Assembly: GCA_934426285.1 (NCBI GenBank)
Contig: CAKRYE010000044.1
Location: forward strand, 1 to 15,930
From: an uncultured Blautia sp.
GTDB taxonomy: Bacteria > Bacillota > Clostridia > Lachnospirales > Lachnospiraceae
Direction: 5' to 3'
Length of the DNA: 15,930 nt
The position numbers were made by a program, and so were the translations under genes. Of this stretch, positions 3 through 8,821 are shown in pieces. Below the pieces are notes generated by a model. It made no database searches and had not been told where the DNA came from. It saw only the letters and a list, made by a program, of their open reading frames with translations. Numbering within the stretch: the first letter of the stretch is position 1; each line of letters starts with the position of its first letter.

Positions 3-455
3 GGAGATGGAGAATCCTACACAGAGGGAGACTGGATTTCTATGGAATATGTGGTTGCTTCGGATGATTACAGACCACTGAAACATACTCAGATTCTGAA
101 TCATAAGGATGGCACTTCAGAAGAAGCTTCGAAGATGGAATTCTCCTACGGCGTGGACAGACCTGAGGATGTAGCAAATCTCTGTGAAAAGTACGAAGAA
201 GCAGAAATAGCAGAAGGTGATGTACGTAATGTGACAGTTACTGCAGCTCCTGGTACAGAGCAGGAAAAGGATTATGCAATCACGGTTCCAGCAGATAATT
301 ATGTATGGATCATGCTTCATGACGATAATTCTTATTACATTATGTATACAGATAAGGAGTGTAAAGAACTGTACGAGCCAGAGGAAGATGTGAAAGGAGA
401 CACACATCTTTATGCAGAGATTGAGTCTTATGAAGAGGCGGAGGATGAAGTATGA
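3..455 (+). CDS. C-terminal part of an acidic protein of unknown function (5' end outside window)
   Basis: The frame is open to the left edge, so only the last 150 residues are visible and the true start lies upstream; the Met codon at 42 is internal. I do not recognise the family. The visible part is very acidic, with many Glu/Asp, and contains stretches rich in Tyr and Val that look like beta structure (for example ITVPADNYVWIMLHDD). It ends in a Glu-rich tail. No membrane segment is visible in this part. Its stop codon (453-455) overlaps the start of the sigma factor gene by 11 bases, which suggests translational coupling and a shared operon. A protein co-transcribed with a small sigma factor could be part of its sensing or regulation, but this is only inference. 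That it is a real gene is fairly sure; its role is unknown. Confidence 0.75.
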   Translation, partial: GDGESYTEGDWISMEYVVASDDYRPLKHTQILNHKDGTSEEASKMEFSYGVDRPEDVANLCEKYEEAEIAEGDVRNVTVTAAPGTEQEKDYAITVPADNYVWIMLHDDNSYYIMYTDKECKELYEPEEDVKGDTHLYAEIESYEEAEDEV

Positions 456-948
456 GGAGTTTGAGCGTATTTATCAGGAATATTATCTGAAAATTTTGAC
501 ATTTATACATAAAAGAGTTCCTGATCTGTATGAAGCGGAAGAACTGACTGGAGATGTATTTCTGTCTTTTTACAGAAATATGGACAGTTATGATGAAGAA
601 AAAGGTAGTATAGCTACCTGGTTGTATGCAATCACAGCAAACCGCCTGAAAAACTATTATAGGGATAAAAAGAATCATTATTCTCTGGAAATCCTGAAGC
701 AGCAGACAATTCCCCGGGAAAAAATGCCGGAGGAGATTGTGGCAAAGATTATGAGAGAAGAGACATTAAGAAAAAGTCTGGAGCAGCTTTCTGACAGAGA
801 ACGGGAAATTCTTCTGGGAAGATTTTATTATCAGAAAAGTTCCACAGAGCTTGGCAGGCAGATGAATTTATCACCGGGAAATGTAAGGATGATACAGAAA
901 CGTGCTCTGGAGAAGTTGCGAATGATTATGGAAAAACAGGGGGAATAG
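445..948 (+). CDS. Sigma-70 family (ECF-type) RNA polymerase sigma factor
   Basis: A 167-residue protein with the two-domain layout of small group IV (ECF) sigma factors. Region 2 lies at about residues 5-75, with the typical stretches EELTGDVFLSFYRNM and IATWLYAITANRLKNYYR. Region 4 is at about 110-160, with LSDREREILLGRF and a helix-turn-helix containing LSPGNVRMIQKRALEKLR. Region 4 would contact the -35 element. I chose the ATG at 445 because MKYEEFERIYQEYY is the usual start of region 2 and GAGG lies six bases upstream; an in-frame ATG at 430 would add five basic residues. It overlaps the upstream acidic protein gene. No recognisable anti-sigma gene follows; instead there is a degraded membrane protein remnant, so its regulator, if any, may be the upstream protein. 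The target promoters are unknown. Confidence 0.88.
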   Translation: MKYEEFERIYQEYYLKILTFIHKRVPDLYEAEELTGDVFLSFYRNMDSYDEEKGSIATWLYAITANRLKNYYRDKKNHYSLEILKQQTIPREKMPEEIVAKIMREETLRKSLEQLSDREREILLGRFYYQKSSTELGRQMNLSPGNVRMIQKRALEKLRMIMEKQGE

Positions 949-958
949 GCGTTCAGGA

Positions 959-1316
959 GTGGTCTCGATAGTAGAAAGGTCTTCTTCCGGAAGTTTTGAT
1001 GAAGTGATAGGCGCAGTAGGAACTGATGATTTTGGCCTTGTTTTAGGAATTGCACTTGGAATTGTGGAGTGAAAAAGATAAAAAAAGAGACCTCATGATT
1101 CTTGTGGCAGGGCTTTTGATCTGTATTGCTGCTGTGCTGTACTATGAATACAAACCATATCCACTTGATTATCTGCCGGATGGATCACTTCTGGCTGATC
1201 CTGCTAAAATGCGGGGAGATGCATATGAAGGAGTCGGATTTATTGCATCCTTTGTCATCTGCAGGATACTGGAAAAAAGACAATTAGATTTTGAAGAAAA
1301 ACAGGGGCAGCCTTAA
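959..1316 (+). pseudogene. Probable C-terminal remnant of a PAP2-family membrane phosphatase, frameshifted
   Basis: Two overlapping frames read like successive pieces of one membrane protein. Frame A (959-1072) ends GTDDFGLVLGIALGIVE-stop. Frame B (open from a TTG at 1050, first ATG at 1095) begins KKRDLMILVAGLLICIAAVL and continues through a second membrane segment, GVGFIASFVICRILEKR, ending in LDFEEK. A hydrophobic helix, a Tyr/Pro-rich YEYKPYP segment, then DAYEGVGF with a last helix and an ERR/EKR-x-x-DFE end is how I remember the C-terminus of clostridial PAP2 phosphatases. The catalytic motifs (KX6RP, PSGH, SRX5HX3D) would lie upstream and are absent here, because the sigma factor gene stops just before. 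An alternative is that 1095-1316 encodes a small two-helix membrane protein of 73 residues, but its RBS is poor. The assignment rests on pattern memory. Confidence 0.45.
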
Positions 1317-1324
1317 GGCTGCCC
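1297..1324 (-). terminator. Rho-independent terminator of the minus-strand leader-peptide gene
   Basis: A perfect 8-bp stem, GGGCAGCC with GGCTGCCC (1305-1312 and 1317-1324), encloses TTAA. Read on the minus strand it is followed after CTG by five T residues (A-run at 1297-1301 on the plus strand). On the plus strand no T-tract follows, so it serves the minus-strand gene ending at 1368. It overlaps the last codons and stop of the plus-strand remnant ORF. Confidence 0.8.
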
Positions 1325-1367: not shown

Positions 1368-1538
1368 TCAACGTTTTTGAATTTCATCTATTTTCATGCC
1401 TCGTTTTAACATCGCGTTTATCCTCATCTGCTCCTTATATCTGGGATCATCCATAGTAGGACGGCCAAAACCACCGGCAACATTTTCTAATTCTTCTTCA
1501 GATAATTCGTTTGTAATGTTCTGTTTGATTTCGCTCAT
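1368..1538 (-). CDS. Double-glycine leader precursor peptide (RiPP/bacteriocin-like), 56 residues
   Basis: The minus strand encodes a 56-residue peptide with a near-ideal start: AAGGAG seven bases before ATG (1538). The first 23 residues form an acidic leader, MSEIKQNITN followed by ELSEEELENVAGG, the classical double-glycine leader (L-x-x-x-x-L-x-x-V-x-GG pattern) cut by C39 peptidases. The presumed core, residues 24-56, starts FGRPTMDDPRYKEQ and ends KRGMKIDEIQKR. It is basic (9 Lys/Arg against 5 Asp/Glu), has four Met, and contains no Cys and one Thr, so lanthionine or disulfide rings are not expected. The leader motif closely matches that of the Nif11-like precursor at 6988 (ELTDEQLDAVAGG), and the C39 exporter nearby is the natural processing partner. 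A promoter and a terminator flank it, so it forms its own transcript divergent from the exporter operon. Whether it is a toxin, a signal or an inducing peptide cannot be told. Confidence 0.85.
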   Translation of the reverse strand: MSEIKQNITNELSEEELENVAGGFGRPTMDDPRYKEQMRINAMLKRGMKIDEIQKR

Positions 1539-1581
1539 AATAGTTCTCCTTTCTTGTAAGAATTCGAATGCTTCCTATCTG

Positions 1582-1610
1582 TTTATAAACATCAGAAGAG
1601 AATTTGTCAC
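1582..1610 (-). promoter_or_regulatory. Promoter of the minus-strand leader-peptide gene
   Basis: On the minus strand, GTGACA (1605-1610) and TATAAA (1582-1587) are separated by exactly 17 bases, a good sigma-A type promoter. The start of transcription would fall near 1575, giving a leader of about 35-40 bases before the ATG at 1538. Confidence 0.65.
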
Positions 1611-2034: not shown

Positions 2035-2544
2035 GTGGATAAACAGAGTATATTTCGAAGAGAAAGCCTTGATCGTGTTGAATCTCCGGAACAATTAGAT
2101 GCATATATTAAGGTGTCTCGTCCGAAGGTTTGGTTAATTATGGCGGCACTTCTGGTAGCGGTAATATCTGTGATTGTATGGAGCGTTGTAGGAAGCCTTC
2201 CGCAGACGATGACAGTGAAAGGAATTACCGTTGGAGGTAATGTGATTAACTGCTATGAATGTGTAGAAAATGCCAATACAAACCTGATAGGATGTAAGGC
2301 AAATATTACACTGCCTGATGGAAGAAGCATCAGTGGCAAAGTGGAGGCAGTGAGTCAGAATCCTTATTCACAGGAAGAAATTCGTGCTGAAATATCAGAA
2401 GACTGGCTTGCGGATAATGTGCTTGATGGAAACTATTCTTATGAAGTCCGGGTTATAGCTGAAGAAGACATTCCCTCGAATATGCTGGCAACAGTTATTA
2501 TTACAACGGCCGAAATGAAACCAATTCAATTTATTTTGGATTAG
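2035..2544 (+). CDS. Short HlyD/NHLM-type membrane-fusion subunit of the peptide exporter
   Basis: A 169-residue protein starting with GTG, chosen because GGAGG ends eight bases upstream; the ATG at 2027 is out of frame. The N-terminus IFRRESLDRVESPEQLDAYIKV followed by a single transmembrane helix (about residues 32-54) is typical of the secretion protein of NHLM bacteriocin systems. The rest is extracytoplasmic and beta-rich, with ITLPDGRSISGKVEAVS looking like the barrel or lipoyl-like part. Full-length HlyD-type adaptors are normally more than twice as long and have a coiled-coil hairpin, which is missing. This short form is what I would expect in a monoderm host with no outer membrane to reach. 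Three Cys (in NCYECVENA and IGC) lie outside the membrane and could form a disulfide. It is followed nine bases later by the C39 exporter gene, so it is the first gene of the export operon. Confidence 0.8.
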   Translation: MDKQSIFRRESLDRVESPEQLDAYIKVSRPKVWLIMAALLVAVISVIVWSVVGSLPQTMTVKGITVGGNVINCYECVENANTNLIGCKANITLPDGRSISGKVEAVSQNPYSQEEIRAEISEDWLADNVLDGNYSYEVRVIAEEDIPSNMLATVIITTAEMKPIQFILD

Positions 2545-2553
2545 GAGAGTGCT

Positions 2554-4716
2554 ATGAAAAAGAGAAAAAAAAGAATCACAGTTCCGGTTATTATGCAGAT
2601 GGAAGCCCTGGAATGTGGTGCAGCAAGCCTTGCCATGATTCTTGCGTATCATGGCAAGTGGTTGCCGCTTGAACAAGTTCGTAGTGATTGTGGAGTATCA
2701 AGAGATGGAAGCAAAGCTTCCAGTATTGCAAAAGCTGGAAGAAGTTATGGGCTGGAGGTAAAAGCACATCGATATGGAGTAGACGAAGTAAAAGAGAATG
2801 TTACTTATCCTGCAATTATCCATTGGAATTTTAATCATTTTGTTGTGTTATGCGGTTTTACCAAAAATGCAGCTGTAATTAATGATCCTGCACGTGGAAC
2901 GATCAAGGTAACAATGGAAGAATTTGATCATTCTTTTACAGGAGTATGTATTGAGTTCACACCAGGAGAAAACTTTGAGAAGGGCGGAAAGCCGGAAAGT
3001 GTATTTAAGTTTTTGAAGGATAGACTGGCCAATACAACGGATTCTGTGATTTTTGTAATGATTACGGCAGCCCTTGTTGCTTTTGTAGGCCTGGTTACTC
3101 CCGTGTTTGCCAGAATATTTACGGATCAGATTTTGCCCGGACATAATAGGCATTGGCTTGTAATGCTTCTGGGGGCAATGCTTTTCACTGCTATATTCCG
3201 AATGATTGTTGGTTTTCTTAATGAGATATATCTTTACAGGATTAAAGGAAAGCTTGCTATTGTATCAAATGCCTCATTTATGTGGCATATGCTTCATCTG
3301 CCCATGGATTTTTATGCACAACGAATGGTGGGAGACCTTGCAGGCAGACAAAAGCTGAATGATCAGATTGCAGAGATTTTGATCGCAAAAATAGCTCCGG
3401 TGTTTATCCAGATTATACTGTTGTTTTTTTATTTTATAATCATGATACGTTACAGCGTGGTTTTGACTTTTGTAGGTTGTATTGCGATTGCGTTAAATCT
3501 GCTTGCGTCTCAGATCGCATCACATATGCGGGTGGAAACTACCAGAGTTCGTATGAGGGATGAAAGTAAAGTGGATTCTGCAACTATGTCAGGAATTGAT
3601 ATGATAGAGAGTATTAAAAGCTCAGGTGCAGAGAATGGTTTTTTTGAAAGATGGGCTGGATTTCAGGCTTCAGCAAATATCCAGACAGTAAAGCAGTTAA
3701 GAAATGACAGCTTCTTTCTGAGTATTCCGGTTTTGCTTCAGGAATTGTCGAATGCAGCAATTCTTACCATTGGTGTTTGGCTGATCATGAAAGGAAAATT
3801 CAGTGTTGGTATGCTTGTGGCATTTCAGAGTTTGCTTCAGCAATTCATGATGCCTGTGGAAAGCCTGCTTGATATTGGACAAAGTATTCAGGAAACACGT
3901 ACTTCTATGGAACGGGTACAGGATGTTATGAAATATGCTCCTGACAACAGTTATGTAAAGACGTTTTCAGAGGATGATATTACTGAATTTGAGAAGCTTA
4001 AAGGAACAATAGAACTTCGGCATGTGACTTTTGGATATTCGAAATTGGAGGAGCCACTTCTGAAAGATTTTAATCTGATCATTCATCCCGGAGATAAAGT
4101 TGCTTTTGTAGGACCATCTGGCTGCGGAAAGTCTACGCTTGCAAAGCTGATTTCGGGGCTCTATGAACCGTGGGAGGGAGAAATCCTTTACGATGGGAAA
4201 GAGATAACTGAGATACCAAGAGAGGCATTTTCAGGTTCGCTGTCTGTTGTTGATCAGGAGATTACCTTATTTGAGGATAGTATTTCGGAAAATATCAAAA
4301 TGTGGGATAAGAGCATTACGGATTATGAAGTGATCCTTGCGTCTCGGGATGCCCAGATTTATCAGGATATTATGGCGCGTCCGGGAGGGTATGAACACAA
4401 GATTGATGCAGGAGGCCGTAATTTTAGTGGTGGTCAGCGCCAGCGTTTTGAAATTGCAAGAGTCTTGGCAGGAGACCCTACGATCGTAATTTTGGATGAG
4501 GCAACGTCAGCCCTGGATGCTAAAACAGAATATGAAGTCACCAAGGCAATCAAAAACCGTGGAATTACTACGATAGTAGTTGCGCATCGTCTTTCTACGA
4601 TCAGGGACTGTAATGAAATTATTGTGTTAGAGCATGGTCAGATAAAAGAGAGAGGCACTCACGAGGAATTATATAAGCTGGGCGGAATGTATTCCCAATT
4701 GGTTACAATAGAATAA
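2554..4716 (+). CDS. C39-peptidase ABC exporter (PCAT, NHLM-type) that cleaves and exports double-glycine peptides
   Basis: A 720-residue protein with the full PCAT order. The N-terminal C39 peptidase (about 1-135) has Gln15 and catalytic Cys21 in QMEALECGAASLAMI, His95 in WNFNHFVVL and Asp111 in INDPARG. The membrane domain is at about 165-460. The nucleotide-binding domain has Walker A GPSGCGKST at 520-528, signature FSGGQ at 624-628, Walker B ending ILDEATSALD with Asp648-Glu649, and the H-loop AHRLSTI. All catalytic residues are present, so it should be an active protease and ATPase. By family knowledge it cuts leaders after Gly-Gly while exporting the core across the cytoplasmic membrane. 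The two precursors with VAGG leaders in this window (1368-1538 minus and 6988 plus) are its likely substrates. It starts with ATG after GGAGAG and is coupled to the genes on both sides by short gaps. Confidence 0.93.
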   Translation: MKKRKKRITVPVIMQMEALECGAASLAMILAYHGKWLPLEQVRSDCGVSRDGSKASSIAKAGRSYGLEVKAHRYGVDEVKENVTYPAIIHWNFNHFVVLCGFTKNAAVINDPARGTIKVTMEEFDHSFTGVCIEFTPGENFEKGGKPESVFKFLKDRLANTTDSVIFVMITAALVAFVGLVTPVFARIFTDQILPGHNRHWLVMLLGAMLFTAIFRMIVGFLNEIYLYRIKGKLAIVSNASFMWHMLHLPMDFYAQRMVGDLAGRQKLNDQIAEILIAKIAPVFIQIILLFFYFIIMIRYSVVLTFVGCIAIALNLLASQIASHMRVETTRVRMRDESKVDSATMSGIDMIESIKSSGAENGFFERWAGFQASANIQTVKQLRNDSFFLSIPVLLQELSNAAILTIGVWLIMKGKFSVGMLVAFQSLLQQFMMPVESLLDIGQSIQETRTSMERVQDVMKYAPDNSYVKTFSEDDITEFEKLKGTIELRHVTFGYSKLEEPLLKDFNLIIHPGDKVAFVGPSGCGKSTLAKLISGLYEPWEGEILYDGKEITEIPREAFSGSLSVVDQEITLFEDSISENIKMWDKSITDYEVILASRDAQIYQDIMARPGGYEHKIDAGGRNFSGGQRQRFEIARVLAGDPTIVILDEATSALDAKTEYEVTKAIKNRGITTIVVAHRLSTIRDCNEIIVLEHGQIKERGTHEELYKLGGMYSQLVTIE

Positions 4717-4726
4717 GAGGTTTAAT

Positions 4727-6901
4727 ATGGGGTGGTTTGACAGTCAAATTAGAGAAAGAATTTCAAATAATAAACAACAGCTTCAAAAGGCATACTGGAA
4801 TCTGGCATCAGTTGTTATGAAGGAGTCCAATGAGACCTTTGCAGACACCCAGAGCACTGGAAATCAGAATGCACTGACGCAGATTTGTCGTTATTTCCAT
4901 CTTGAAGTTAATACTGTGCCGGACAATATTGTGGATTTGGAAGAACAGCTGGAATATCTGTTTCGCCCAAGCGGGATCATGAGAAGACGTATTAAATTGG
5001 CAGGCGAATGGTGGAAAGATTGTTATGGACCAATCCTGGCAGAAAGAAAAGATGGACAGATGATAGCCCTCCTTCAGGGAAAAGGAGATCATTATTATTA
5101 TCAGGATATAAAAGGAAAATCAAAGAATCGCGTTGATTCGCAAACAGCAAAAGAGCTCTGCGAAGAAGCAGTTTGTTTTTACCGTCCGCTTCCGCAAAGA
5201 GAATTGACACAAAAAGACCTGTTTAAATTTATACTGAAATCGTTCACAAGTCAGGATAAAGTTTATATGATAGTTGCGGGATTTGCAATTATGTTGTTGG
5301 GTCTGATCGTTCCAATGGCGACTACTTTTCTGTTAGAGAATATACTGCCATCCGGTCAGGCGATTATGGTTGGTTCTATTGCCGTCCTTTTAGCGGGAAC
5401 TGCTGTTTCAAAATTTCTTTTTTCTGTTGTAAAAGAGATGATGAGGGGACGTGTAGAGCAGAAAATGAAAGTTGAGCTTCAAAGTGCTGTGTTTGCAAGG
5501 ATCCTGAATTTGCCGGTTCAGTTTTTTAAAGAGTATTCAGCAGGTGAATTGTCTGAGAGGGCGATGGCTCTCACAGAATTGTGTACCATTTTTTGCGAAA
5601 TATTATTGGGATTTGGTATGACGGCATTGTTTTCCTTAGTATATCTGATACAGATTTTAAGTATTGCTCCGGTTATGTTTTTGCCGGCTCTGGCAGTTCT
5701 TTTCGTTCAGCTTCTTATTGCGGGAGTCAGTGTTTATGGGCGCTTGACTGTAATGACAATGGAACTTGAAGCATCCACAAAAGTACAGGGGATTGTATAT
5801 GAGATCTTTTCGGGAATTCAAAAAATCAAACTTGTAGGATGTGAGGAGCGTGCATTTGCAAAATGGGCAGAAAAATATCAGATGGAAGCTAAGGCCAAGT
5901 ATGATCCGCCGTTTGCATTCAAAGTTCAAAATGCATTGTCACCAGTTGCCACGATATTAGGAAGCATGCTATTATTCGCTGTTGCGACAAATAAATCATT
6001 AAGTGTTCCTCAGTACGTGGCATTTAATACATCTTTTGGAATGGTGAGCGGAGCAATTCTGGAATTGACTTCAGTAGCAGCTATGATATCAGCTCTTCGT
6101 CCGATCATGGATCTTGCAGAACCGATACTGAAGGCAAAGCCAGAAGTATGTGAAGAGCGTCAAATTGTAAAAAAGGTGAAAGGAAGCATTGAGTTAAATA
6201 ATATATCTTTCCGCTATACTGATGATGGACCGTGGATCATCGATCATCTGAATCTTAAAATTCCCAGAGGTCAGTATCTTGCGATAGTCGGAACAACCGG
6301 CTGTGGAAAAACAACATTGATGCGATTAATGATGGGATTTGAAACACCGAAATCCGGGGCCGTATATTATGATGGGAAGGATATTCAGAAGTTAGACCAA
6401 AAATCTTTGCGTCAGCAGATCGGTGTTGTGATGCAAAACGGAAAACTCTTTAGTGGTGATATTTTTTCTAATATTACGATTTCAGCACCGCAGCTTGGAT
6501 TAAAGGAGGCCTGGGAGGCAGCAGAGATGGCTGGTGTAGCAGATGATATACGCAATTTGCCGATGGGCATGCATACGATATTAAGTGAAGGTTCCGGTGG
6601 GATATCGGGAGGGCAGAAACAACGTTTGATGATTGCGCGTGCAATTGTTACAAAACCGAAAGTGCTTTTGTTTGACGAGGCAACCTCTGCACTTGATAAC
6701 ATTACACAGAAACATGTTTCTGATTCTTTGAAAAACTTAAAAAGTACAAGAATTGTGATTGCACATCGATTATCCACAATCAAAGAATGTGATCGGATTA
6801 TCGTTTTGGATAAAGGGCGCATTATTGAAGATGGTACCTACCAGTCTTTGAGTAAAGCAGGAGGTTTCTTTTCTGAATTGGTTGAAAGGCAAAAAATTTA
6901 A
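4727..6901 (+). CDS. Second NHLM-type ABC exporter, ATP-binding/permease protein without a peptidase site
   Basis: A 724-residue ABC protein starting ten bases after the C39 exporter. The first 170 residues lack a C39 catalytic Cys. They contain WWKDCYGPILAERKDG and end in FYRPLP, the pattern of the N-terminal domain of the second ABC protein of NHLM systems. The membrane domain follows at about 180-470. The C-terminal ATPase has Walker A GTTGCGKTT at about 522-530, signature ISGGQKQR at about 626, Walker B FDEATSALD and H-loop IAHRLSTI, so it looks catalytically complete. In NHLM clusters this protein is paired with the C39 exporter and HlyD subunit and probably forms a heteromeric exporter, though the exact stoichiometry is not known to me. 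It precedes the Nif11-like precursor gene by 86 bases. Confidence 0.9.
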   Translation: MGWFDSQIRERISNNKQQLQKAYWNLASVVMKESNETFADTQSTGNQNALTQICRYFHLEVNTVPDNIVDLEEQLEYLFRPSGIMRRRIKLAGEWWKDCYGPILAERKDGQMIALLQGKGDHYYYQDIKGKSKNRVDSQTAKELCEEAVCFYRPLPQRELTQKDLFKFILKSFTSQDKVYMIVAGFAIMLLGLIVPMATTFLLENILPSGQAIMVGSIAVLLAGTAVSKFLFSVVKEMMRGRVEQKMKVELQSAVFARILNLPVQFFKEYSAGELSERAMALTELCTIFCEILLGFGMTALFSLVYLIQILSIAPVMFLPALAVLFVQLLIAGVSVYGRLTVMTMELEASTKVQGIVYEIFSGIQKIKLVGCEERAFAKWAEKYQMEAKAKYDPPFAFKVQNALSPVATILGSMLLFAVATNKSLSVPQYVAFNTSFGMVSGAILELTSVAAMISALRPIMDLAEPILKAKPEVCEERQIVKKVKGSIELNNISFRYTDDGPWIIDHLNLKIPRGQYLAIVGTTGCGKTTLMRLMMGFETPKSGAVYYDGKDIQKLDQKSLRQQIGVVMQNGKLFSGDIFSNITISAPQLGLKEAWEAAEMAGVADDIRNLPMGMHTILSEGSGGISGGQKQRLMIARAIVTKPKVLLFDEATSALDNITQKHVSDSLKNLKSTRIVIAHRLSTIKECDRIIVLDKGRIIEDGTYQSLSKAGGFFSELVERQKI

Positions 6902-6987: not shown

Positions 6988-7284
6988 ATGAATGAAAACT
7001 TAAAACAGGCTATTTTAAAGGTGAAGGAAATGCCGGAAGTTCAGGAAAAGCTTACAAAGGCAGAGACATTGGAAGAAGTGTATGAGATTATGCAGTCTGC
7101 TGGGTCAGGCTTCACACTGGATGAATTCAAAGCAGCAATGGAAGAAATGAATAAAGCAGGTTCAGGAGAACTCACAGATGAGCAGCTTGATGCAGTTGCC
7201 GGTGGTGCTTTTTCTTTAGCAGAATATCTGAGAATGTCTGCATTAGCATCGAAAGGGGCAATTGAAGCGTTGAAAAATGAGTAA
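6988..7284 (+). CDS. Nif11-like leader precursor peptide (RiPP/bacteriocin-like), 98 residues
   Basis: The start ATG lies seven bases after GGAGG. The leader (1-73) has the Nif11-like helical pattern: an N-terminal segment ENLKQAILKVKEMPEVQEKL, then ETLEEVYEIMQSAG, then GFTLDEFKAAM. It closes with ELTDEQLDAVAGG, the double-glycine cleavage site of C39 exporters. The predicted core (74-98) starts AFSLAEYLRMSALASK and ends EALKNE. It has no Cys and no Thr and only three Ser, is nearly neutral in charge and could form an amphipathic helix. Nif11 leaders are usually found with lanthionine or other modifying enzymes; none is in this window. It may therefore be exported as an unmodified linear peptide or be modified by an enzyme coded elsewhere. 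It is the last large gene of the export operon, directly downstream of both ABC proteins, and its stop codon overlaps the start of a 43-residue ORF. Confidence 0.9.
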   Translation: MNENLKQAILKVKEMPEVQEKLTKAETLEEVYEIMQSAGSGFTLDEFKAAMEEMNKAGSGELTDEQLDAVAGGAFSLAEYLRMSALASKGAIEALKNE

Positions 7285-7408
7285 AAAACAAGGGTCATTC
7301 GAGGAGATGAGACATCACTCCGAAAATGGGGGCCTTTTTGGCGAACGGTTAATTCACAGAGACTTTTATGGGATCGATGATGCGGTAAAGGATGCATGGA
7401 AGCTTTAA
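7277..7408 (+). CDS. Small overlapping ORF (43 residues) at the end of the export operon
   Basis: ATGAGTAA at 7277-7284 joins this ORF to the end of the Nif11-like gene, an arrangement that allows translational re-initiation. The 43-residue product starts MSKKQGSFEEM, contains SENGGLFGERLIHRDFYG and ends DDAVKDAWKL. I do not recognise it. It has no Cys and no membrane segment, so a classical membrane-bound immunity protein is unlikely. It carries one Gly-Gly at residues 18-19, but the preceding residues do not fit a standard leader. No clear RBS precedes 7277; an internal ATG at 7307 sits immediately after GAGGAG, too close for normal initiation. It may be a real small protein, a fragment of a decayed gene, or chance. 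Confidence 0.4.
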   Translation: MSKKQGSFEEMRHHSENGGLFGERLIHRDFYGIDDAVKDAWKL

Positions 7409-7534: not shown

Positions 7535-8821
7535 ATGAAGAAATACAGCGACATGACCAAAGAAGAACTTCTCACCCTGAAAGCTCAGTTGGAAAAAGAA
7601 TTCGCAGAAATCAAAGCCCAGGGACTGGCCCTGGATATGTCCCGCGGAAAACCATCTGCAGATCAGCTGGATCTTTCCATGGAAATGATGAACGTATTAA
7701 ACAGTGATTCAAATCTGAAATGTGAAACAGGTGTAGACTGCCGTAACTATGGTGTTATCGATGGAATTCCAGAAGCAAAGCGTCTCCTTGGAGAAATGTC
7801 CGAGGTAGACCCGGAGCATATTATTATTTACGGAAACTCAAGCTTAAACGTAATGTTTGACAGCATTGCCCGTTCTATGACACAGGGAGTAATGGGAAAT
7901 ACTCCATGGTGCAAGCTGGACAAGGTAAAATTTCTCTGTCCTGTGCCAGGTTATGACCGTCATTTCAAAATCACAGAATTCTTCGGAATTGAGATGATCA
8001 ATGTGCCAATGACTCCACAGGGACCTGATATGGATATGGTAGAAAAGCTTGTCAGCGAAGATCCGGCCATCAAGGGAATCTGGTGTGTGCCGAAATATTC
8101 CAATCCACAGGGTTACACCTACTCTGCAGAGACTGTAGACCGTTTCGCGCATCTGAAACCTGCAGCTCCGGATTTCCGTATTTACTGGGATAACGCGTAC
8201 AGCATCCATCATCTCTATGATGACAAGCAGGACTTCCTGGTAGAAATCCTGGAAGCATGTGCAAAAGCCGGAAACCCTGATCTGGTATATAAATTTACTT
8301 CCACATCCAAGGTAAGCTTCCCGGGCTCCGGAATTGCAGCTGTAGCAGCATCTAAGGCAAACCTGGAGGATTTCCGCAAGTATATGCAGATTCAGACCAT
8401 CGGACATGACAAATTAAACCAGCTCCGTCATGTAAGATTCTTCAAGAATCTGGAGGGACTTCATGCGCACATGAGAAAACATGCAGATATTCTCCGCCCG
8501 AAATTTGAAATGGTTCTGGATACTCTGGACAGAGAACTTGGAGGACTGGGAATCGGTGAGTGGACAAAGCCTCATGGTGGATATTTCATCTCCTTTGACT
8601 CCATGGAGGGATGTGCAAAGGCTATCGTTGCCAAAGCAAAGGAAGCAGGAGTTGTCCTTACAGGAGCAGGTGCAACTTATCCATATGGCAAGGATCCAAA
8701 AGATTCCAATATCCGTATTGCACCAAGCTTCCCGACTCCGGAAGAGCTTGGAAAAGCAGCAGAAGTATTTGTACTCTGTGTAAAACTTACAAGTGTGGAA
8801 AAGCTTCTGGAGAATGCCTGA
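7535..8821 (+). CDS. PLP-dependent aminotransferase, probable type Ic aspartate aminotransferase
   Basis: A 428-residue protein starting ATG after AAGGAGG. The sequence follows the MocR-like aspartate aminotransferase family (Asp_aminotransf). LDMSRGKPSADQLDLS lies near the N-terminus and NYGVIDGIPEAKRLL at 71-85 marks the substrate-side segment. YSNPQG at 188-193 carries the Asn that contacts PLP, and WDNAY at 218-222 holds the Asp for the pyridine nitrogen. Lys259 in FTSTSKV is the Schiff base lysine. The C-terminal NIRIAPSFPTPEEL holds the Arg that binds the substrate carboxylate. It would catalyse transfer between aspartate and 2-oxoglutarate in the cytosol, but substrate choice in this fold is hard to call. 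It has its own promoter and is followed by a hairpin, so it is probably monocistronic. Its codon use looks more G+C-rich than that of the export operon. Confidence 0.9.
   Translation: MKKYSDMTKEELLTLKAQLEKEFAEIKAQGLALDMSRGKPSADQLDLSMEMMNVLNSDSNLKCETGVDCRNYGVIDGIPEAKRLLGEMSEVDPEHIIIYGNSSLNVMFDSIARSMTQGVMGNTPWCKLDKVKFLCPVPGYDRHFKITEFFGIEMINVPMTPQGPDMDMVEKLVSEDPAIKGIWCVPKYSNPQGYTYSAETVDRFAHLKPAAPDFRIYWDNAYSIHHLYDDKQDFLVEILEACAKAGNPDLVYKFTSTSKVSFPGSGIAAVAASKANLEDFRKYMQIQTIGHDKLNQLRHVRFFKNLEGLHAHMRKHADILRPKFEMVLDTLDRELGGLGIGEWTKPHGGYFISFDSMEGCAKAIVAKAKEAGVVLTGAGATYPYGKDPKDSNIRIAPSFPTPEELGKAAEVFVLCVKLTSVEKLLENA

Follow-up and report, generated by a model that had tools for sequence, protein, structure and literature searches.

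A short double-glycine precursor peptide predicted beside an NHLP/Nif11-type exporter

The locus and the peptide gene

The window analysed here – the whole stretch of 15,930 nucleotides – opens inside the gene preceding an ECF-type sigma factor. Beyond the sigma factor gene, on the minus strand, lies a short open reading frame (ORF) that encodes a precursor peptide; it is adjoined by what profile scores identify as a three-gene exporter of the NHLP/Nif11 type, followed by a second candidate cargo gene. The features are:

412..948, plus strand: ECF-type sigma factor, a possible regulator (TIGR02937, 99.4 bits, cut-off 42.9)
1295..1324, minus strand: intrinsic terminator, GGGCAGCC TTAA GGCTGCCC, then CTGTTTTTCT
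1368..1538, minus strand: 56-aa precursor peptide (ATG-started ORF; 48 protein matches; TIGR01847, 16.3 bits)
1538-1470, minus strand: leader of the precursor, MSEIKQNITNELSEEELENVAGG, 23 aa
1469-1371, minus strand: core of the precursor, FGRPTMDDPRYKEQMRINAMLKRGMKIDEIQKR, 33 aa
1370-1368, minus strand: stop codon of the precursor gene
1546..1551, minus strand: ribosome binding site AAGGAG, 7 nt 5' of the ATG (from the sequence)
1582..1610, minus strand: promoter-like GTGACA-17-TATAAA (10/12 matches)
2035..2544, plus strand: short HlyD-like accessory protein of the exporter, 169 aa (TIGR03794, 50.2 bits)
2554..4716, plus strand: C39 peptidase/ABC exporter ABC1, NHLP-type, 720 aa (TIGR03796; alignment with 6mpz)
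4727..6901, plus strand: second ABC exporter subunit ABC2, 724 aa (TIGR03797)
6988..7284, plus strand: Nif11-type precursor, second cargo, 98 aa (leader end ELTDEQLDAVAGG, core AFSLAEYLRMSALASKGAIEALKNE)

Both ABC subunits score above the cut-offs of their families: ABC1, with 925.9 bits for TIGR03796 (cut-off 853.3) and the active-site residues Q15, C21, H95 and D111, is the C39 exporter that the original prediction had placed next to the peptide gene, and ABC2 reaches 726.4 bits for TIGR03797 (cut-off 709.4). The Nif11-type precursor passes TIGR03798 (36.5 bits, cut-off 32.3) and falls just below Pfam Nif11 (23.6 against 23.8). The match of the HlyD-like protein to TIGR03794 lies below the cut-off of 156.2 and covers profile positions 1-54 of 421; a counterpart in Robinsoniella is 52% identical over all 169 residues. 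All four families belong to the system of Haft and colleagues, as set out in the available part of their report (PMC2887384). Among the 17 window ORFs scanned with Pfam there was no modifying enzyme, and no immunity gene, kinase, response regulator, receptor or sensor was recognised among the window ORFs scanned. A 43-aa ORF (7277-7408), with an ATG that overlaps the last bases of the Nif11 precursor gene, gave no match to Pfam with E up to 1.

On the other side, the sigma factor gene sits 0.4 kb past the end of the peptide gene. Within positions 3-948 it adjoins a gene whose product is like the C-terminal half of a protein of 283 aa that starts with a signal-like stretch, and a similar pair of sigma factor and partner occurs at another exporter locus (L022, 7612-9016). 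The peptide gene itself is flanked by debris – a PAP2-like piece on one side and 500 bp without a clear gene on the other. The former, an ORF at 1050-1316, is 38% identical over 74 residues to the region behind the PAP2 domain in a PAP2-family protein (locus L037) and is probably the remnant of such a gene; we considered it as an immunity protein and judged this unlikely, given its resemblance to the C-terminal part of a PAP2-family protein. The interval between peptide and exporter holds two short pieces in different frames (1740-1942), of which the open one has no Pfam match; they may be what is left of an earlier gene.

The 56-residue minus-strand ORF, its ATG and the AAGGAG seven bases before it are all present as originally described, and so is the double-glycine leader, which terminates in ELSEEELENVAGG and scores above the TIGR01847 cut-off of 15.7. 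Across six frames of the whole window, a strict pattern for such leader ends (L[ST]x[EDQ]ELxx[VI][AS]GG) occurs once, in the precursor ORF; the Nif11 leader at 6988 misses it. The strict pattern appeared in none of 1000 dinucleotide shuffles, a looser one in 7 of 1000. A chance ORF is ruled out by the 48 protein matches together with the absence of the strict pattern from the 1000 shuffles.

The flanking signals fared less evenly. The promoter proposed at 1582-1610 exists, with its 17-base spacing and 10 of 12 matching positions, but its score is reached in 56 of 1000 shuffled versions of the 130 bases upstream, and it is weak evidence; a general promoter and terminator scan omits it because the scan rule demands a T closing the -10 box. 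The proposed terminator is likewise there, as a stem of 8 pairs (1324-1305, minus strand), 7 of them G-C, followed by the T run, but a single terminator in 1.7 kb compares with a shuffle mean of 0.7, so that the count alone is not above chance. A scan with Rfam gave nothing at gathering score. The minus-strand gene is described here as a predicted transcription unit of its own.

The core agrees with the earlier description as basic and Cys-free: its 33 residues carry a charge of +3.8 at pH 7 (pI 10.2), with a GRAVY of -1.29 and a monoisotopic mass of 4051.085. AlphaFold2 places helices at residues 32-45 and 50-55 (block pLDDT 82-93 from residue 31 on; pTM 0.40), so that the core is predicted to fold as a helical hairpin. 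A Foldseek search of the predicted peptide against the PDB gave no match. The tail had been likened to half of a helix-turn-helix, for which support is weak; two helices are predicted, and a core cut from a longer relative comes near MerR_1 (PF13411; 15.4 bits, cut-off 21.6, E=0.021), but the window core matches neither MerR_1 nor any other Pfam domain.

Relatives of the peptide and of the exporter

When 5.8 billion proteins were searched, 48 of 50 candidates matched with E no higher than 1, each match being a cluster. The family members so found were already in the database, and the original description of the gene as hidden and liable to be missed by annotation does not hold. The core is kept to its end in 18 of the 48 clusters, which comprise 552 of the 607 member sequences; completeness was judged by a sequence pattern of our own. 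With 48 protein matches and so many kept cores, the gene is real. Some core-complete clusters (P0006, P0017, P0021, P0032) carry small in-frame gaps or an insertion, and in two of the 18 the GG pair is substituted – VACG in P0002 (4 sequences) and VAGD in P0009 (1).

The other 30 clusters are broken in various ways. Fifteen (37 sequences), with P0011 nearly complete among them, retain the leader and the first part of the core before passing into a different frame or sequence; three (3 sequences) have core deletions; four (6 sequences) have only the leader with its GG; and eight (9 sequences) have lost the GG, six of these (P0042-P0047) resembling joins to unrelated sequence. Several broken clusters are other reading frames of the same DNA. 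Two of those in another frame, P0020 and P0027, have the ending FVNNYINPSGQP, identical to the window's +1 frame entering the terminator stem, and P0037 extends 5' into the window's upstream frame, where the window has a stop; these matches to other frames of the window show that the flanks are common to some relatives. Insertions and deletions, whether real or apparent, occur in the core. Frame-breaking changes in relatives had been named beforehand as evidence that would count against the prediction: such changes were found, in a minority of sequences. P0024 and P0029, the only two members for which an NCBI source is given, are frame-broken, which counts against a universally working gene.

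Two C-terminal types are common, the window's ending in IQKR and the other in IQKALKSYS or IQKALKFYS. Past IQK, the window DNA reads TLKF and then a stop in another frame, which suggests that the types probably differ by one lost base. Several changes from type to type replace a residue by a similar one (K to R, D to E, I to M), and in a chosen set of aligned relatives the core is nearly unchanged (alignment A2: 13 rows including the window, picked from the 48 matches); a further alignment, A3, consists of pieces cut from 8 sequences. Common relatives score just under the TIGR01847 cut-off of 15.7 (P0013 15.3, P0003 15.2), and for P0004 that family is not listed. The precomputed label PF28158.1 is given to members that lack the core and is absent from some that have it, so it seems to track the leader. 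A profile search with the core only gave 31 matches from 36 candidates – the same family plus the short fragments P0169 and P0170 – in a method that needs shared exact words and that distant relatives can escape; the window core matched no family in a core-only search. From these searches, which returned its close family only, the core looks like an orphan.

The family also appears narrowly distributed. An exact-word scan of GTDB r220 representatives gave 294 pattern matches, none of them confirmed, and no relative of the peptide was found on plasmids, phages or viral contigs. In one of five exporter-bearing genomes the peptide found a match within the E limit of 1, the best value being 0.096. 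The host, a member of the Lachnospiraceae, probably belongs to or near Blautia and probably comes from the gut. Its aminotransferase (7535-8821) is 86% identical to a Blautia sp. protein, and the nearest genus was chosen by this gene's 87% identity in genome G267, the best of 397 sampled Lachnospiraceae. Within the 64 genomes of that genus, 12 had a match at E up to 1, the best at 0.058 over residues 9-25 and none convincing; the genus of genome G281 gave none in two genomes. A literature search that included the literal peptide sequence, with most subscription papers outside it, found no paper on the peptide.

When the peptide profile was run against the 397 Lachnospiraceae genomes, 34 had a match at E up to 0.1, none of full length and each covering part of the leader or part of the core. 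Thirteen of the 34 pass a leader-type cut (query start <=11, end >=22, open frame <=150 aa) and hold a leader of the same general kind, outside this family; 9 of these 13 have an ABC1-like exporter, against 41 of the 397 overall (p=3e-7, assuming that the leader and exporter searches used one identical set of 397 genomes). Core-side matches, found in 16 genomes of which 3 have the exporter, show no association (p=0.22); for all 34 genomes the figure is 11 with the exporter (p=2e-4).

For the exporter there were at least 593 matches, of which the best 80 were kept as loci, and ABC1-like exporters occur in 41/397, 21/64 and 4/13 genomes of three sets. Among the matches listed, the best identity is 63% (Robinsoniella); all relatives on plasmids fall below 60%, and megablast of the locus against phages gave no match. 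By a pattern of our own, 44 of these 80 loci, the best of at least 593 matches, contain at least one ORF with a double-glycine leader. They hold 120 such ORFs, 117 on the exporter's strand and 3 on the opposite one; 57 of the 120 have Cys-free cores, and 26, in 15 of the 80 loci, have short leaders (leader <=35, core <=60). Of the 80, 61 loci had at least 3 kb upstream (19 had less) and were scanned there for opposite-strand ORFs of 30-90 aa with a word resembling a ribosome site: six fitted the loose pattern, none read as a leader peptide, and a comparable peptide was found in 0 of the 61. The pairing of peptide and exporter is seen once, in this lineage only.

Among the related loci, double-glycine leaders fused to LysM or CW_7 domains, with Pfam scores above cut-off, occur in L019 (13359-13622, 15898-16119 and 16291-16617), where both domains are represented; such fusions are also seen in L052 (17705-18010, LysM), L027 (15457-15807, CW_7) and L039 (7418-7750, CW_7). 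LysM and CW_7 domains bind peptidoglycan, so the NHLP-type exporters of these loci may also send out wall-binding cargo. The locus of an uncultured Marvinbryantia (L079, 5600-9484) carries twelve paralogous double-glycine precursors with Cys-rich, GGGG-containing cores; the one tested has no Pfam match at E 0.01. The nearest exporter, in Robinsoniella (L001, 1682-9980), is accompanied by five Nif11-like-looking double-glycine precursors, a methyltransferase, two YcaO proteins and a radical SAM/SPASM protein, and is likely part of a modified-peptide cluster.

Leader recognition and the proposed export

The C39 domain of ABC1 is identical to LahT147 (6mpz) at 89 of 136 positions without a gap and keeps the catalytic Gln, Cys, His and Asp, while the residue of the -4 pocket changes from Ile in LahT to Val. 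According to the accessible part of the LahT study (PMC6363468), cleavage stops when residue -4 is Lys or Asp, the same two residues at -7 have a strongly negative effect, and most changes at -12 impair it; 13-14 residues of the leader end are enough, the core may vary freely, and precursors with leaders far shorter than those of Nif11 type are cut as well. The peptide leader, with V-4, L-7, L-12 and GG, conforms to these substrate rules. With a C39 domain so near LahT and its catalytic residues kept, the predicted removal of the leader after GG and the export by the neighbouring system appear well supported, and cleavage by ABC1 is the best-supported mechanism that the sequence suggests.

Family profiles place the peptide at the edge of known groups. 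TIGR01847 passes its cut-off by a borderline margin, and the rest fall short: TIGR03798 (Nif11) at 17.2 bits against 32.3, over profile positions 47-68 only; TIGR03793 (NHLP) at 14.7 against 50.9, over positions 61-77; NF038167 (CTB bacteriocin) at 26 against 32, over residues 2-27; PF04604 (type-A lantibiotic) at 20.4 against 21.7; and Bacteriocin_IIc and ComC, both below cut-off. One feature of class II unmodified bacteriocins, a GG leader with an adjacent C39 exporter, is found here. A lanthipeptide or heterocycle precursor was rejected: the core has no Cys, and no modifying enzyme, lanthionine-forming or other, was recognised among the ORFs scanned.

We favour, with a probability of about 0.75, the reading that the gene encodes a short-leader cargo of the adjacent NHLP/Nif11-type exporter, unmodified as far as the window goes and released as a linear peptide of 33 residues. 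The leader end would form a short helix, placing V-4, L-7 and L-12 in the C39 groove as was shown for LahT; C21 of ABC1 would cut after GG; and ABC1, ABC2 and the short HlyD protein would release a linear, cationic and hydrophilic peptide. It would share this exporter with the Nif11-type cargo at 6988-7284 while being transcribed from the other strand, as a separate unit.

Possible roles and known systems

What such a peptide would do, once exported, is a matter of more tentative choice. A role as an extracellular signal or inducer is possible, a narrow antimicrobial one conceivable though tentative, and a wall- or surface-associated or other role unlikely; the slight lean from antimicrobial to signal comes from a core that is hydrophilic, little changed and unaccompanied by an immunity candidate.

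In its specific form, the signalling reading holds that the peptide is a secreted double-glycine pheromone controlling its own exporter or the Nif11 cargo. Its separate transcription unit on the opposite strand and its nearly unchanged core in the aligned relatives are consistent with this, as is the sigma factor gene close by: in tblastn, relatives of that factor occur at 20 of the 80 exporter loci (the best 80 of at least 593 matches, with no control loci run) and, in a wider set, at 22 of 146, or by a looser count at 21 of about 160. An ECF factor as dedicated regulator of the exporter system is possible. The reading is nonetheless doubtful: neither histidine kinase nor response regulator was found among the ORFs scanned, the link to the sigma factor is conjectural, and a general repeat search (at least 14 nt) found no motif shared upstream of both cargo genes. 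A bolder version, in which one exporter serves two leader classes and the peptide signals to the locus through the ECF sigma factor, with no kinase or receptor of known type, is very improbable.

Rather doubtful, too, is the reading as an unmodified bacteriocin of class II, lethal or inhibitory to close relatives. The GG leader, the C39 exporter and the basic, Cys-free core all suit it, and the best family matches are to leaders of bacteriocins or lantibiotics; yet these matches span the leader and at most six core residues, the window core alone matches no family, and no immunity gene was recognised, the one nearby ORF (1050-1316) being PAP2-like. The core is also more hydrophilic than the Nif11 core (GRAVY +0.19) and than two of the five Robinsoniella cores (+1.17 and +0.95), though at related loci the values for six further short cargo cores lie between -0.08 and -1.79, so that its hydrophilicity is not unusual among them.

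The LysM and CW_7 fusions at related loci, together with MAM – a protein with a GG leader beside a C39 exporter that the available text of PMC12184118 describes as an envelope protein – make surface- or wall-associated cargo a live third option. Set against a window core of only 33 residues with no Pfam domain, it is improbable. Equally improbable is a relic gene on its way to being lost, whose leader and core are kept by recent descent only. The narrow distribution, the frame-broken copies (P0024 and P0029 included), the two clusters without GG, the C-terminus ending in QKR and a stop where others have QKALKSYS – by an apparent loss of one base – and the debris on both sides would all fit such decay, but the core is kept in the great majority of member sequences, several changes between types are conservative, and ribosome site and terminator are in place.

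If the favoured reading – cleavage and release of a linear cargo – is true, it would provide a defined, synthesisable Lachnospiraceae peptide together with a protease to try it on, nearly related to one whose rules are known, and a case of an NHLP/Nif11-type exporter serving a short-leader linear cargo; such exporters are usually discussed with long leaders and modifying enzymes, at least in the accessible portion of PMC2887384. Until an effect is known, the peptide is another orphan among many.

Among known systems, both ABC subunits and the Nif11-type cargo fall by score within the NHLP/Nif11 system (PMC2887384, in the part available); unlike that system's cargo, the 56-aa peptide carries neither of the leader domains, NHLP or Nif11, and the HlyD-like protein, itself short, stays under its cut-off. 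The Robinsoniella locus differs in having two YcaO proteins, a radical SAM protein and a methyltransferase, whereas the window has no recognised modifying enzyme. From class II double-glycine bacteriocins and pheromones (TIGR01847, Bacteriocin_IIc, ComC) the peptide differs in its core, which matches none of them, the leader being alike. MAM of Faecalibacterium is similar in its GG leader and adjoining C39 exporter but has 135 aa and a 21-residue leader of different sequence (PMC12184118, available text). PCAT1/CtA of Clostridium thermocellum offers another parallel, as CtA is a small cargo of a C39 exporter with a 24-residue leader, and one of two PDB sequences that phmmer returned at E up to 10 (a weak match, E=1.5); it is unlike the window peptide in being a 66-residue cargo with M at -4, as given in the passages at hand of PMC6959990, and the C39 domains of PCAT1 and ABC1 are distantly alike (56 bits). 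Closest is LahT/LahA of Lachnospiraceae bacterium C6A11, which shares the catalytic residues, most of the C39 domain and the V-4, L-7, L-12, GG leaders; in the accessible part of PMC6363468 the LahA leaders are of Nif11 type, whereas the window peptide has a leader of 23 residues. By these comparisons the peptide would be a new, narrow addition to a known type of double-glycine cargo.
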